DNA of 54,897 nt from Flavobacteriaceae bacterium (GTDB lineage: Bacteria > Bacteroidota > Bacteroidia > Flavobacteriales > Flavobacteriaceae). Made by a program: the position numbers and the translations under genes. Below, in pieces: positions 41,497 through 49,063 of the stretch. How positions within the stretch are numbered: the first letter of the stretch is position 1; each line of letters begins with the position of its first letter. The notes beneath the pieces are model-generated. The model had not been told where the DNA came from, searched no databases, and saw nothing but the letters and a program-made list of their open reading frames with translations. The stretch spans positions 1 through 54,897 of the forward strand of contig JABAYY010000055.1 of NCBI GenBank assembly GCA_018608765.1. Reading direction: 5' to 3'.

Positions 41497-42747
41497 TTAA
41501 ATTCCAAAAGCGTCTTTAATGACCGCTACATAGTCTAGTTTTTCCCATGTAAACAATTCAACATCTAAAGTTAAGCTTTCTCCATTCGGTTGATGAAATG
41601 TTTTGGTCACTGATTTATGTTCACGACCCATATGCCCATAAGCAGCCGTTTCACTGTATATAGGACTTCGAAGTTTTAAACGTTTTTCGATAGCTGCAGG
41701 GCGTAAATCAAATAATGTTGAGATTTTATCGGCAATTTCACCATCAGTCAAATTAAATGGACTTGTACCATAGGTATCCACAAATACACCCATAGGCTCA
41801 GCAACGCCAATGGCATAACTTACTTGCACCAAAACTTCAGAGCAAATTCCTGCTGCCACCATATTTTTGGCAATATGACGCGTGGCATAAGCAGCACTAC
41901 GATCCACTTTGCTAGGGTCTTTCCCTGAAAACGCACCCCCACCATGCGCCCCTTTTCCTCCATAGGTATCTACAATAATTTTTCGTCCTGTAAGGCCTGT
42001 GTCGCCGTGTGGTCCTCCAATCACAAACTTCCCAGTTGGATTGATGTGATATGTAATTTTATCATTAAATAAATCCTGAATATGTGCAGGTAGTTTTGCA
42101 ACCACTCTAGGGATTAATTTTGTTTTTAAATCCTCTCTAATTTTTGCCAACATAGCAGTCTCTTCGTCAAAATCATCGTGTTGTGTAGAAATAACGATTG
42201 CATCAATTCGTTTTGGCGTATTGTCATCATCATATTCAATAGTCACCTGACTTTTAGAGTCGGGTCTAATATAGGTAATGTCTGAGTTTTCGCGACGCAT
42301 AGCAGCGAGTTCAATCAATATACGGTGCGATAAGTCCAATGCTAAAGGCATGTAGTTTTCGGTTTCATTTGTAGCATATCCAAACATCATCCCTTGATCG
42401 CCTGCACCTTGTTCTTCAGCCCCTCTGTCAACCCCACGATTGATGTCTTCCGACTGTTCATGAATTGCGGAAAGCACCCCACAAGAATTGCCATCAAACA
42501 TATATTCTCCTTTGGTATAGCCAATCTTGTTAATCGTATCGCGTGCAATTTTTTGTACATCCAGATAGGTTTTAGATTTAACCTCACCTGCCAGAATCAC
42601 TTGACCAGTTGTTACTAAGGTTTCACAAGCCACTTTTGAATCTGGATCAAAAGCTAAAAAATGGTCGATTAAAGCATCACTAATTTGGTCGGCAACCTTA
42701 TCTGGATGGCCTTCTGAAACACTTTCGGATGTAAATAAATAACTCAT
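41497..42747 (-). CDS. metK: S-adenosylmethionine synthetase
   Basis: A 416-residue enzyme that makes SAM from methionine and ATP. Motifs: [49 protein letters not shown], and [48 protein letters not shown]. The gene has a SAM-II riboswitch in its 5' leader and a hairpin that contains the start codon, so product feedback at the RNA level is expected. Downstream it converges on the EamA permease gene. Confidence 0.98.
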
Positions 42748-44806: not shown

Positions 44807-45017
44807 TAGAAATTCACTAATCAGCACATTTTAAGCCTATTCTGAATAACGCCCCCCTAAATTAATTTCCTAAAATAAGCCCTTAAAAATATAATTTATG
44901 GATTTCAGGCCTATTTTCGTTGAATTATCTATAAATTTTCTAAACAAGTCACAAAAAAAAGAAATTAAGTTTTTTTTTGTAGAAAATATATATACTTTAG
45001 CTTCCAATTACAAAACT
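44807..45017. other. AT-rich spacer and promoter region of the aromatic operon leader
   Basis: No gene was seen up to the leader ORF. It contains T- and A-runs and TATATATACTTTAG at 44987-45000; TACTTTAG (44993-45000) matches seven of eight positions of TAnnTTTG and would place transcription start just before the leader ORF at 45018. An in-frame extension of the leader back to an ATG at 44898 exists but would cross this promoter-like sequence. Confidence 0.45.
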
Positions 45018-45095
45018 ATGACATCCGTAAATTACATTTTTTATAGCTTTTATTATTTCTTTTTTAGAAAAGAAATCGAGGCACTGTGTATGTAA
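45018..45095 (+). CDS. Phe/Tyr-rich leader peptide of the aromatic amino acid operon
   Basis: A 25-codon ORF with ATG at 45018 and TAA at 45093-45095. Residues 6-16 read YIFYSFYYFFF: five Phe and four Tyr in eleven codons, ending in three consecutive Phe codons (45057-45065). The tail RKEIEALCM includes the segment that can act as antiterminator. It ends 56 bases before pheA and directly precedes a terminator. The operon downstream makes phenylalanine and tyrosine, so the codon content matches the pathway products, the hallmark of ribosome-mediated attenuation. The peptide itself is not expected to have a function. Confidence 0.85.
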   Translation: MTSVNYIFYSFYYFFFRKEIEALCM

Positions 45096-45151
45096 TTTAT
45101 CAATATAAATTTTAAATATAAGTCTCGATGTAATCATCGGGATTTTTTTTT
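45075..45151 (+). promoter_or_regulatory. Attenuator: antiterminator/terminator switch upstream of pheA
   Basis: Terminator: tctcgatg (45123-45130), loop taat, catcggga (45135-45142), then nine T (45143-45151) that touch the pheA ATG. Antiterminator: atcgaggc inside the leader ORF (45075-45082) pairs with gtctcgat (45122-45129), eight pairs with one G-T, which destroys the terminator. The AT-rich part between them can fold into its own small hairpin (aattta with taaatt, 45094-45111), bringing the arms together. A ribosome finishing the leader would mask 45075-45082 and allow termination; one stalled at Phe/Tyr codons would leave it free. The same hairpin also covers the ribosome-binding region of pheA. 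Confidence 0.82.
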
Positions 45152-45979
45152 ATGACAAAAAAAGTAGCCATACAAGGAATTGAAGGGTCGTTCCATCACA
45201 TCGTTTCTCAAACATATTTTGAGGAAGCTGTTGCGGTGCAACCTTACCTTTCATTTAGCGAAGTTGTGGAGAGCTTAATGTCTAACAACTCGGACGTGGC
45301 TATCATGGCGCTAGAGAATTCAATTGCGGGTTCTATTATTCCTAATTATGCACACATCAATGATCAGGATTTACATATTACGGGTGAGTATTTTTTAGAA
45401 ATTCAACACAATCTGATGGCACTCAAAGAGCAAACCATTCAGGATATAAAAGAAGTGTTTTCGCATCCCATGGCGTTATTACAGTGTAAAGAATTTTTTA
45501 AACAACACCCCCACATAAAATTAATCGAAGATACTGATACTGCTGAGGTTGCCAAACGAATTTCTGAAAACCAACTTCAAGGCGTCGCTGCAATTGCGAG
45601 TGTACAAGCCGCGCAACTATTTGATTTGGAAATTCTGGCAAATAGTATTCAAACAATCAAGCACAATGAAACCCGATTTGTCGTTGTAGAAAGAACCCCA
45701 TCTACACACAATAAAGCCACAATTAATAAAGCCTCGGTTAAATTTCTATTAGATCACAAACGCGGTAGTTTATCAGCAATGCTCAACGTAATGAGCGATT
45801 GTAATTTGAATTTAACCAAAATACAATCCTTACCAAAAATTGATACTCCATGGAAATACGCCTTTTTTGTGGATATTACTTTTGAGAATTTCTCCGATTA
45901 TGAAAAGGGAAAAGCCATTATGAAACTTATGGCTGAAGAATTTAAGATTTTAGGGGAATATAAAAACGCAAAAAAATAA
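45152..45979 (+). CDS. pheA: Prephenate dehydratase with ACT domain
   Basis: A 275-residue enzyme that converts prephenate to phenylpyruvate. The catalytic domain (1-180) begins KKVAIQGIEGSFHH and contains ALENSIAGSI and the essential Thr-Arg-Phe motif at 174-176 (HNETRFVVVE). The ACT regulatory domain (about 195-270) reads VKFLLDHKRGSLSAMLNVMSDCNLNLTKIQSLPKIDTPWKYAFFVD. The Phe-binding ESRP motif of E. coli-type enzymes is IQSLP here, so allosteric feedback may differ. No chorismate mutase is fused; that activity is supplied by the fourth gene of the operon. The stop codon overlaps the next start in TAATG. Confidence 0.95.
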   Translation: MTKKVAIQGIEGSFHHIVSQTYFEEAVAVQPYLSFSEVVESLMSNNSDVAIMALENSIAGSIIPNYAHINDQDLHITGEYFLEIQHNLMALKEQTIQDIKEVFSHPMALLQCKEFFKQHPHIKLIEDTDTAEVAKRISENQLQGVAAIASVQAAQLFDLEILANSIQTIKHNETRFVVVERTPSTHNKATINKASVKFLLDHKRGSLSAMLNVMSDCNLNLTKIQSLPKIDTPWKYAFFVDITFENFSDYEKGKAIMKLMAEEFKILGEYKNAKK

Positions 45980-47121
45980 TGGTCACTGCCAATCGATTAC
46001 ATACCGTTGAAGAATACTACTTCTCTAAAAAATTAAGAGAAGTCAATGCCATGAAAGCTGCCGGTGCGCCCATCATCAATTTAGGCATCGGAAGCCCTGA
46101 TTTGGCACCACCAAAAACCGTCATCTCTGCGATTACTGACTGTCTGATGGATGCGTCAGCACATAAATACCAAAGCTATCAAGGGTTGCCAGAACTACGG
46201 TCGGCCATGGCAGACTTTTACCAAACCCATTATAATGTAAGTCTAAACTCCGAAAACGAAGTCTTACCATTAATTGGAAGTAAAGAAGGGATTATGCATA
46301 TTTCTATGGCGTATCTCAATGAAGGCGATGCCGTTTTAATTCCAAATCCTGGCTATCCAACCTATACTTCGGTTACAAAATTAGTAGGGGCAGACCCTAT
46401 TTTTTACGACTTAAAAGCGAACTCCAATTGGCAACCAGATTTAGCGGCTTTAGAAGCGATGGATTTGTCCAAGGTGAAAATCATGTGGGTCAATTATCCA
46501 CACATGCCAACAGGAACTTTTGGAGATCACACAATCCTAAAAACACTGGTTACATTTGCTAAAAAACATTCTATTTTACTCATTAATGACAACCCTTATA
46601 GTTTTATTTTAAATGACAATCCTTCTAGTATTTTTAATGTTGAAGGGGCAAAAGAAGTTTGTTTAGAACTAAATTCTTTGAGTAAAACTTTTAACATGGC
46701 TGGATGGCGTGTGGGAATGTTAACAGGTTCAGCGACACATTTACAGAATGTGATTAAAGTTAAAAGCAATATGGATTCGGGAATGTTTTACGGAATTCAA
46801 AAAGGCGCTATTGAAGCTCTAAACAGTTCCAAAAACTGGTTCAAGGATTTAAATAAAATCTATGCCGAACGTCGTGCACTCGTGTGGGAATTAGCCACTG
46901 CTCTTAACTGTACGTTTGAAACAACAACTTCAGGAATGTTTGTATGGGCCAAATTACCATCGGATTTAAAATCAGAAACTTTTATTGACACCCTATTGCA
47001 AAAGCATCACATATTTATTGCACCAGGAACCATATTTGGAAGTAATGGAGAAGGCTATATCCGATTCTCATTATGTGCACCAAAAGAAAGTATTCAATCC
47101 GCTATAAAACGAGTCTCATGA
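45979..47121 (+). CDS. PLP-dependent aminotransferase class I/II (likely aromatic)
   Basis: A 380-residue fold-type I aminotransferase. It has INLGIGSPDLAPP, KYQSYQGLPELRSAMADFY, IPNPGYPTYTSV, the substrate-side WVNYPHMPTGTF, LINDNPYSFI and the PLP Lys236 in LNSLSKTFNMAGWRVGMLTG. Its place between pheA and tyrA, with 1-bp and 4-bp overlaps, makes it the probable transaminase of phenylpyruvate and 4-hydroxyphenylpyruvate, the last step to Phe and Tyr. By sequence alone aspartate, alanine or LL-diaminopimelate aminotransferase cannot be excluded. Confidence 0.9.
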   Translation: MVTANRLHTVEEYYFSKKLREVNAMKAAGAPIINLGIGSPDLAPPKTVISAITDCLMDASAHKYQSYQGLPELRSAMADFYQTHYNVSLNSENEVLPLIGSKEGIMHISMAYLNEGDAVLIPNPGYPTYTSVTKLVGADPIFYDLKANSNWQPDLAALEAMDLSKVKIMWVNYPHMPTGTFGDHTILKTLVTFAKKHSILLINDNPYSFILNDNPSSIFNVEGAKEVCLELNSLSKTFNMAGWRVGMLTGSATHLQNVIKVKSNMDSGMFYGIQKGAIEALNSSKNWFKDLNKIYAERRALVWELATALNCTFETTTSGMFVWAKLPSDLKSETFIDTLLQKHHIFIAPGTIFGSNGEGYIRFSLCAPKESIQSAIKRVS

Positions 47122-47980: not shown

Positions 47981-49063
47981 ATGGAAAACAAAAAAGAACT
48001 AGGAAATTGGTTGAACGAATTGAATCTCGACCACCCTTTAGTAATCGCTGGCCCTTGTAGTGCTGAGACAGAAGAACAAGTATTAAGAATTGCGCATGAG
48101 CTAAAAGATACGGATGTAAGCTATTACCGTGCTGGAATTTGGAAACCTCGAACTCGCCCAGGAAATTTTGAAGGCGTAGGCGCATTGGGTCTAAAATGGC
48201 TTCAAAAAGTAAAGGCTGAAACAGGTTTAAAAACAGCGACCGAAGTTGCCAACAGAGCCCATGTTGAATTGGCTTTAGAACACGATATTGATCTGCTATG
48301 GATTGGTGCCCGCTCTACAGTGAGCCCATTCATTGTTCAAGAAATTGCAGATGCTTTACAAGGGACTGACAAAGTAGTCTTGGTTAAAAACCCTGTCAAT
48401 CCAGACTTAGCCCTATGGCTAGGAGCAATTGAGCGTTTGGCAACAGCTGACATTAAAAATTTAGGAGTCATTCACAGAGGGTTTTCCTCTTATGAAAAAA
48501 CAAAATATAGAAATACACCAGAATGGCAAATGGCAATTGAACTGCAAACAAAGTTTCCAGACCTTCCATTAATTAACGACCCTTCTCATATTACAGGAAA
48601 ACGTGATATGATTTTTGATGTTTCTCAAACCGCATTGGATTTGAATTTTGATGGACTGATGATTGAAACCCATTTTGATCCTGACAATGCATGGAGTGAT
48701 GCGGCACAACAAGTCACACCTGCGTCATTGATTCAAATTATGAAAGATTTAAAAATCAGAAAAGAATCGACTCCAGAAGTTGCTTACAACGACCAACTTA
48801 AAAATTTACGAGCTCAAATAGATGTGATGGACAATCAGTTGCTTGAAACTTTAGGGAAGCGAATGAAAGCTGCCGAAAGTATCGGGGCTCTTAAAAAACA
48901 AGAAAATGTGGCTGTTTTACAAAGCAAACGTTGGAATGAAATTTTAGGGAAGATGGTTCTCGAAGGAGAACAACACAACTTGAGTGAAGAGTTTATTCTC
49001 AAACTGTTTAAAGCAGTACACCAAGAATCGATCAATCACCAAGAATTGATTTTGAATAAGTAA
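47981..49063 (+). CDS. Bifunctional 3-deoxy-7-phosphoheptulonate synthase / chorismate mutase
   Basis: A 360-residue fusion. Residues 1-260 are a type I-beta DAHP synthase (KDO8P-synthase-like): PLVIAGPCSAETEEQVL, YYRAGIWKPRTRPGNFEGVG, TATEVANRAHVELALEHDIDLLWIGARS, VLVKNPVNPDLALWLGAIERL, INDPSHITGKRD and GLMIETHFDPDNAWSDAAQQVTP. Residues about 268-355 are an AroQ-class chorismate mutase (LKNLRAQIDVMDNQLLETLGKRMKAAESIGALKKQ). So the operon holds both the first step of the shikimate route and the branch step from chorismate to prephenate. It follows tyrA by 11 bp and ends at a strong terminator. Confidence 0.95.
   Translation: MENKKELGNWLNELNLDHPLVIAGPCSAETEEQVLRIAHELKDTDVSYYRAGIWKPRTRPGNFEGVGALGLKWLQKVKAETGLKTATEVANRAHVELALEHDIDLLWIGARSTVSPFIVQEIADALQGTDKVVLVKNPVNPDLALWLGAIERLATADIKNLGVIHRGFSSYEKTKYRNTPEWQMAIELQTKFPDLPLINDPSHITGKRDMIFDVSQTALDLNFDGLMIETHFDPDNAWSDAAQQVTPASLIQIMKDLKIRKESTPEVAYNDQLKNLRAQIDVMDNQLLETLGKRMKAAESIGALKKQENVAVLQSKRWNEILGKMVLEGEQHNLSEEFILKLFKAVHQESINHQELILNK

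Follow-up and report, generated by a model that had tools for sequence, protein, structure and literature searches.

A putative transcription attenuator with Phe and Tyr codons in a single leader, upstream of the pheA operon of a Flavobacteriaceae bacterium

The 54,897-nt stretch of Flavobacteriaceae DNA analysed here (the window) carries, directly ahead of a pheA gene, a short open reading frame crowded with phenylalanine and tyrosine codons and a hairpin of the intrinsic terminator type. This raises the question of whether the two together could make expression of the downstream genes depend on the supply of both amino acids. The reading we favor, at a probability of roughly 0.9 and on the strength of sequence comparison and folding models, is that transcription is attenuated here by a ribosome-mediated switch that senses charged tRNA-Phe and tRNA-Tyr. 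In these bacteria, such a leader would provide a defined point at which aromatic amino acid synthesis is controlled without the help of a regulator protein.

The leader and the operon it precedes

Four forward-strand genes, all assigned by Pfam matches, follow the leader: pheA (prephenate dehydratase, PF00800; 45152-45979), a class I/II aminotransferase gene (PF00155; 45979-47121), tyrA (prephenate dehydrogenase, PF02153 and PF20463; 47118-47969 from the start chosen here, the longest ORF beginning at 47073), and a DAHP synthase-chorismate mutase fusion (PF00793 plus PF01817, chorismate mutase II; 47981-49063). Their junctions are, in order, a 1-base overlap, a 4-base overlap, and an 11-nt gap. 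Among 80 loci from named relatives (the best 80 of 578), 78 keep the four-gene order whole, and the other two run off their contigs. Since the operon makes Phe and Tyr, the very amino acids proposed to be sensed, its content counts for the attenuator reading.

The leader ORF (45018-45095, forward strand) has 25 codons, from an ATG at 45018 to a TAA stop at 45093-45095, and encodes MTSVNYIFYSFYYFFFRKEIEALCM. Re-reading it bears out the nine aromatic codons among residues 6-16 reported in the first-pass annotation: four Tyr (codons 6, 9, 12, and 13) and five Phe (codons 8, 11, 14, 15, and 16), a cluster of codons for the operon's own products. The same frame is open further upstream, as a 65-codon ORF starting at 44898; relatives conserve the start codon at 45018, together with a promoter-like element that sits between these two positions.

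This -7-like element (TACTTTAG, 44993-45000, forward strand) is of Bacteroidota type and fits the -33/-7 promoter class. In 120 of 122 family loci a TAnnTTAG/TTTG/TTCG motif falls inside the 60 nt that precede the leader ATG, compared with 5 of 227 control stretches, and a TTG lies 15-23 nt before the -7-like element in 84 of 122 (at exactly 18 nt in 75), against 1 of 227 controls. At the spacing where most relatives have the TTG box, the window has a T run and no TTG. Transcription is predicted to start near 45005, and the promoter-to-ATG distances put the beginning of the leader ORF close to the 5′ end of the RNA.

At the far end of the leader an intrinsic terminator (45120-45151, forward strand) was found again as first described. 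Its stem (45120-45130/45135-45145) has 11 pairs and a loop of 4 nt, and its run of nine T (45143-45151) is followed directly by the pheA ATG at 45152. The claimed complementarity between the leader and the 5′ arm of this hairpin is also present: 45075-45082 (AUCGAGGC, over codons 20-22) can pair with 45122-45129 (GUCUCGAU) at all 8 positions, one of them G-U. We take the first of these segments to be the 5′ arm (strand 2) of an antiterminator; it covaries with the terminator across species, as described below. In the minimum free energy fold of an RNA ending at 45131, the whole predicted antiterminator (2:3) occupies 45075-45129 with about 22 pairs, including an inner hairpin (45094-45100/45105-45111). 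A third helix, also in the minimum free energy fold, joins strand 1 (45027-45037, over codons 4-7) to 45090-45100, a segment that also contributes to the inner antiterminator stem and holds the leader stop codon. This predicted helix, which shows compensatory changes in relatives, completes a classical 1:2/2:3/3:4 attenuator.

How far such features could arise by chance depends on the feature. Among 5000 dinucleotide shuffles of the 212-nt region, one had an ORF with at least 9 aromatics in 12 codons and 68 had one with at least 7. Three terminator-like sites were found in 2 kb, against 1.0 expected, and the fold of 45000-45160 beats 200 of 200 shuffles (z -3.3). The DNA is AT-rich, so that single features are only moderately unlikely by chance, and it is conservation that decides.

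A structured RNA with mutually exclusive helices might instead act as a switch that binds a protein or a metabolite, the ORF being there by coincidence, and there are sub-threshold Rfam similarities, all weak, that would fit this. No Rfam family reaches its gathering score over the pheA leader, and the alignment of relatives conserves the codon run as well as the helices; a switch of this kind seems to us extremely improbable. T-box and riboswitch readings were rejected together with it, and a small-protein reading on the evidence given further below. The one match in the window to a catalogued cis-regulatory RNA, T-boxes included, is a SAM-II riboswitch (RF01726; 42800-42860, reverse strand), directly before an ORF on the minus strand (41497-42747) whose sequence resembles that of an S-adenosylmethionine synthetase.

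Conservation and covariation in the family

Leaders were scored by an ORF rule. The family set comprised 397 genomes, 360 with pheA (18 and 17 for the genus of the window), from which 124 loci were taken, 17 from the genus and 107 others; these are the best-scoring pheA loci, and distant pheA genes are under-sampled. By this rule a leader is present in 122 of the 124. One miss, L033, has its leader cut by the contig end and is matched by the leader model at positions 15-140; in the other, L084, MNTTVYTYQTWNYFFFSKRNETSYV is found with its terminator 513 nt upstream of pheA. Among loci having 450 nt upstream, 122 of 123 have a leader with at least 7 aromatics in 12 codons, against 2 of 123 on the reverse strand and 85 of 2460 dinucleotide shuffles. 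All 17 pheA loci of the genus have a leader, with the core NYIF(Y/F)SFYYFFF.

The 80 named relatives (again the best 80 of 578, on contigs partly shared with L001-L124) include Formosa, Psychroserpens, Lacinutrix, Winogradskyella, Flavobacterium, and Tenacibaculum. A leader is found in 78 of these, 77 of them with at least 7 aromatics in 12 codons and one (L173) with six. In L135 the contig is cut and the leader tail alone remains; in L168 (Gelidibacter) the leader is 405 nt upstream of pheA. L168 and L084/L458 (G030) both have extra sequence between terminator and pheA, of 405 and 513 nt respectively. In two Flavobacterium loci a Flavo-1 RNA (RF01705) lies downstream of pheA (L184, 7661-7738; L204, 7706-7790).

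An intrinsic terminator likewise stands between leader and first gene across the family: a scripted search finds it in 119 of 122 loci (misplaced in L083 and trimmed in L082), and the other three were located by eye. Its distance from the gene varies. Of 118 loci, 66 have the stem no more than 12 nt away from pheA, 18 have it at 13-30 nt, and 34 at more than 30 nt (112 nt at most). This bears on an alternative in which control is translational, the 3:4 hairpin mainly hiding the pheA start until a ribosome on the leader opens it, with termination unneeded. The window, where the stem ends 6 nt before the ATG, and the 66 loci with similarly short distances would suit it. The 34 loci beyond 30 nt would not, nor would the two at 405 and 513 nt, in all of which the hairpin and T run are still kept; a T run, moreover, is needed for termination and not for hiding a start. 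We consider this alternative very unlikely. The suggestion in the first-pass annotation that the hairpin also blocks the pheA ribosome-binding zone is accordingly not borne out as a conserved feature, since with such distances hiding the pheA start can be at most a local extra.

That annotation had also proposed an alignment across the Flavobacteriaceae as a check, and this upholds it: the aromatic codons and the leader ORF are conserved, and both pairings are retained through compensatory changes. For the leader-terminator pairing, 117 family loci (leaving out L082 and L083 for their misplaced hairpins) have a score of 16.6 with their own partner and 15.2 with partners swapped between species (highest of 1000 swaps, 15.7), while shuffled leaders pair with the terminator arm at 10.7; with four more families added (187 loci) the own and swapped scores are 17.8 and 14.3 (highest of 1000 swaps, 15.0). 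Swap statistics of this sort, here and for strand 1, are inflated by the relatedness of the species. In 19 loci the terminator arm lacks TCTCG; their own leaders pair with these arms at 16.9, and leaders of the common class at 9.8. All three strands are rewritten in L098, of Flavobacterium type, which has the leader GTCAGGATT and the terminator AATCCTGAT...ATCAGGATT. Rewritten cores common to three strands would be hard to obtain without covariation, relatedness notwithstanding. The 2:3 pairing, mutually exclusive with the terminator and covarying with it, scores below 14, a weak value, in 8 of the 117 loci (L006, L007, and L015 of the genus, and L026, L046, L052, L099, and L122).

The strand-1 pairing behaves similarly, with 19.3 for own and 16.4 for swapped partners (119 loci; highest of 1000 swaps, 17.3). 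The helix is formed by GTAAATTACAT/ATGTAATTTAT in the window, TTATACATAT/GTATGTATAA in many relatives, TGTTAGCAAA/TTTGCTAACG in L101, and AACATCTGG/CCAGGTGTT in L113. A 50-locus alignment has 16 two-sided changes in it, against 5.5 in shuffles (a number reached in 0 of 500), and a slight excess of paired cells (89.3%, against 87.1% in shuffles). The best partner stretch for strand 1 pairing lies elsewhere in 10 of the 119 loci, where the pairing starts at or before the ATG.

The leader could also be read as encoding a small functional hydrophobic peptide, with the hairpin an ordinary terminator or pause, and within the family the peptide is indeed both conserved and hydrophobic. Across families, it is the aromatic content and not the sequence that is kept; the peptides differ in length and in their tails, the latter changing in step with the terminator arm. 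Leaders with HHHH and WWW before the his and trp genes of the same genome (see below) are a pattern of codon sensing, and we judge the peptide reading very improbable. The comparative evidence as a whole supports the claim that a single leader senses Phe and Tyr by ribosome-mediated attenuation.

Folding model and proposed mechanism

We infer the following course of events, from promoter use through leader translation, stalling, and termination to the cellular response. RNA polymerase would start about 12 nt before the leader ATG, with a ribosome following. When Phe or Tyr is short, the ribosome would stall in codons 6-15 and cover strand 1 (45027-45037), leaving strand 2 (45075-45100) free to pair with strand 3 (up to 45129); with the antiterminator formed, polymerase would read on into the pheA, aminotransferase, tyrA, and DAHP synthase genes. 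When both amino acids are plentiful, the ribosome would reach codons 17-25 and cover strand 2, so that strand 3 would pair with strand 4 and transcription would stop in the T run just ahead of pheA. An untranslated leader would form 1:2 and 3:4, keeping the operon off.

This scheme was modelled by thermodynamic folding with assumed ribosome footprints, the RNA end being stepped along the leader. With a ribosome on codons 6-14 and the RNA end at 45131, the antiterminator has a predicted probability of 0.92-0.98; with a ribosome on codons 18-25 this falls to 0.00, and the terminator forms at 0.93-0.97 at full length. Together with the covariation, the model is consistent with a 1:2 pairing that a stalled ribosome breaks. 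The outcome for codon 16, the last Phe codon, depends on the assumed leading edge (antiterminator 0.85 for 12 nt and 0.03 for 16 nt); the graded response suggested for stalling at this codon is thus possible in the model, with a size set by the footprint chosen. A stop codon in the P site, which is not a normal state, gives 0.69 at 45131.

Free nascent RNA is predicted to form 1:2 at 0.97 for ends from 45100 to 45120 and at 0.95 for 45125. The antiterminator then overtakes it at ends 45128-45136 (0.90-0.94) and is favored over the whole range 45128-45140 (0.69-0.94), which makes the untranslated 'off' state less than clear-cut; at full length (45151) the terminator and 1:2 win, at 0.97 each. 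At full-length equilibrium with a ribosome in place, the antiterminator is a clear winner on codons 10-11 alone (0.56-0.87), gives a mixed result on codons 7-9 and 12-14 (0.22-0.73), and is outcompeted on 6, 15, and 16 (0-0.33). Because it is this weak at equilibrium, switching would have to depend on the order of transcription.

Codon content, related systems, and range

All 122 family leaders contain both Phe and Tyr codons. Synonymous codons are both used (TTT 435 and TTC 171; TAT 418 and TAC 58, over the 122 leaders). Trp codons are found in none of the 17 genus leaders and in 81 of 105 others, which suggests a sensor for aromatic amino acids generally, with a genus that does without Trp. 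The statement in the first-pass annotation that one leader senses two amino acids therefore stands for the genus of the window and is too narrow for most of the rest of the family.

The DAHP synthase may be relevant here. Two PF00793 matches are found in the genome of the window (G000, 87% complete), and two in G001 (99%); the better one of each pair (E 2e-60) is at the level of frames of about 275 aa in other genomes, which are presumably KdsA-like, and the fusion in the window scores 5.5e-37. With the better match set aside as KdsA-like, the attenuated operon seems, from these matches, to hold the only type-I DAHP synthase in both genomes (type I alone was assessed). If so, this would explain the Trp codons of the 81 leaders, and the Trp-less leaders of the genus would be a testable puzzle.

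A familiar system of this kind is pheL of E. coli, with tandem Phe codons, a three-helix switch, and a terminator before pheA. The leader in the window shares all three; pheL responds to Phe only, Tyr control in E. coli being exerted by TyrR, whereas the type described here has Phe and Tyr, and elsewhere often Trp, in one leader, and its operon includes tyrA and a DAHP synthase. With four Tyr codons in the window and Tyr in 122 of 122 family leaders, it is not an E. coli-type Phe-only leader. The enterobacterial ilvGMEDA and thrABC leaders likewise carry codons for several amino acids made by their operons (branched-chain; Thr and Ile). They resemble the present case in serving several products with one leader; they differ in that these are not aromatic, and in belonging to a phylum with other promoter and translation-start signals.

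Closer at hand, one study (PMC9723704) reports signs of leader-peptide attenuation upstream of amino acid operons in Flavobacterium psychrophilum, and describes a structured 5′ element of its pheA, present in other Flavobacteriaceae genera and without an Rfam hit. This is very probably the same element as the leader in the window; the main-text account of it is silent on codon content, helices, dual sensing, and any occurrence beyond the family. The Bacteroid-trp leader RNA (Rfam RF01692) listed by Weinberg (2010; PMC2864571) is also a peptide leader before an aromatic amino acid operon in the same phylum. It is a Trp leader and another RNA, with no match in the pheA leader of the window. Leader genes of Bacteroidetes are discussed in PMC4833913, the available text of which lacks the word pheA, and sORFs reminiscent of leader peptides in Bacteroides are noted in PMC7366714. 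We recognised no description of a Phe/Tyr leader in Bacteroidota in the openly accessible main texts searched. The leader can be regarded as a well-supported new form of a known mechanism, partly anticipated in print.

Comparable leaders stand before other operons. In the genome of the window, hisG is preceded by the leader MNLFIAIHHHHLLTGHQAR (HHHH; L422, G000:C21), with an antiterminator pairing TCAAGCG/CGTTTGA, and trpE by MNLTLNNTWWWYSRKQNS (WWW; L431, G000:C34), which matches Bacteroid-trp at 49.2 bits (gathering score 49). His-run leaders were found at 18 of 18 hisG loci (from 26 genomes), with a terminator and an antiterminator-like pairing in all four loci checked, and Trp-run leaders at the 19 trpE loci read (of 25), L442 having just two Trp. 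A simple duplex search found no trpE antiterminator, the best scores in three loci being 9-10. Of seven loci with a single-domain Biopterin_H gene, for a biopterin-dependent aromatic amino acid hydroxylase, three carry a Tyr-rich leader together with a terminator and an antiterminator-like pairing: L267 (the same as L244; G059:C4) with MKNLNNTYYYYPILTRRIGQ (YYYY), L265 (G190) with VINTNIYYYYYPLLNFRIG (YYYYY, from a GTG start), and L270 (G106) with MKTNRIYTIYMYTFYHRWRAR. No leader was seen on reading L266. There is no pheA match in G059 or G106 (82% complete), the hosts of L267 and L270.

These cases incline us toward the broader idea that Bacteroidia use a widespread modular attenuator, with a codon run retuned for each operon: Phe and Tyr (with or without Trp), His, Trp, or Tyr-rich. 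On that idea, the Tyr runs would precede a phenylalanine-hydroxylase-like gene, the Tyr-making step in genomes lacking pheA. It would also call for a ribosome close behind the polymerase, so that transcription and translation would be tightly coupled in a phylum not known to rely on Shine-Dalgarno sites. Since ribosome-mediated attenuation needs such coupling, the leader offers a ready natural reporter for this question; the available portions of two reviews on coupling (PMC7858274, PMC10953045) do not contain the word 'Bacteroidetes'.

Searched with a cut-off of E≤0.1, which lets in chance hits, a leader model built on the 50-sequence alignment has matches in 329 of the 397 genomes of the family and in 88 of 395 from the phylum. 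Among the phylum-search loci L235-L263, 25 of 29 matches lie before pheA, four of these in two families of other orders. Some matches were set aside: L257, L259, and L261 look like terminators with no aromatic leader before them, and one in the genome of the window (G000:C19:1130-1270, E 0.012) resembles the end of a gene and its terminator, not a leader.

For four related families (f2, f3, f4, and f8), the best-scoring 27-30 loci each were read directly, from 27, 51, 35, and 57 genomes with pheA, respectively. Leaders precede pheA in 30 of 30 loci in f3, 28 of 30 in f4, 11 of 28 in f8 (not counting the unreadable L339 and L353), and 3 of 25 in f2 (not counting L369 and L373, likewise unreadable); the remaining 17 readable loci of f8 and 22 of f2 have pheA without a leader. 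A six-aromatics rule had given 12 for f8 and 6 for f2, cut by eye to 11 and 3: L324 (f8) and L357, L363, and L377 (f2) pass the rule, show no attenuator, and were left uncounted. The scripted search found no terminator in L320 or L410. Phe and Tyr codons are present in every leader of these families, and Trp codons in 16 of 30 (f3), 2 of 11 (f8), 4 of 28 (f4), and 3 of 3 (f2). Within f8, no leader stands before the pheA genes closest to the flavobacterial one (L324-L337, 45-51% identical), and the 11 genes that have one are 37-42% identical, which suggests two pheA lineages in this family.
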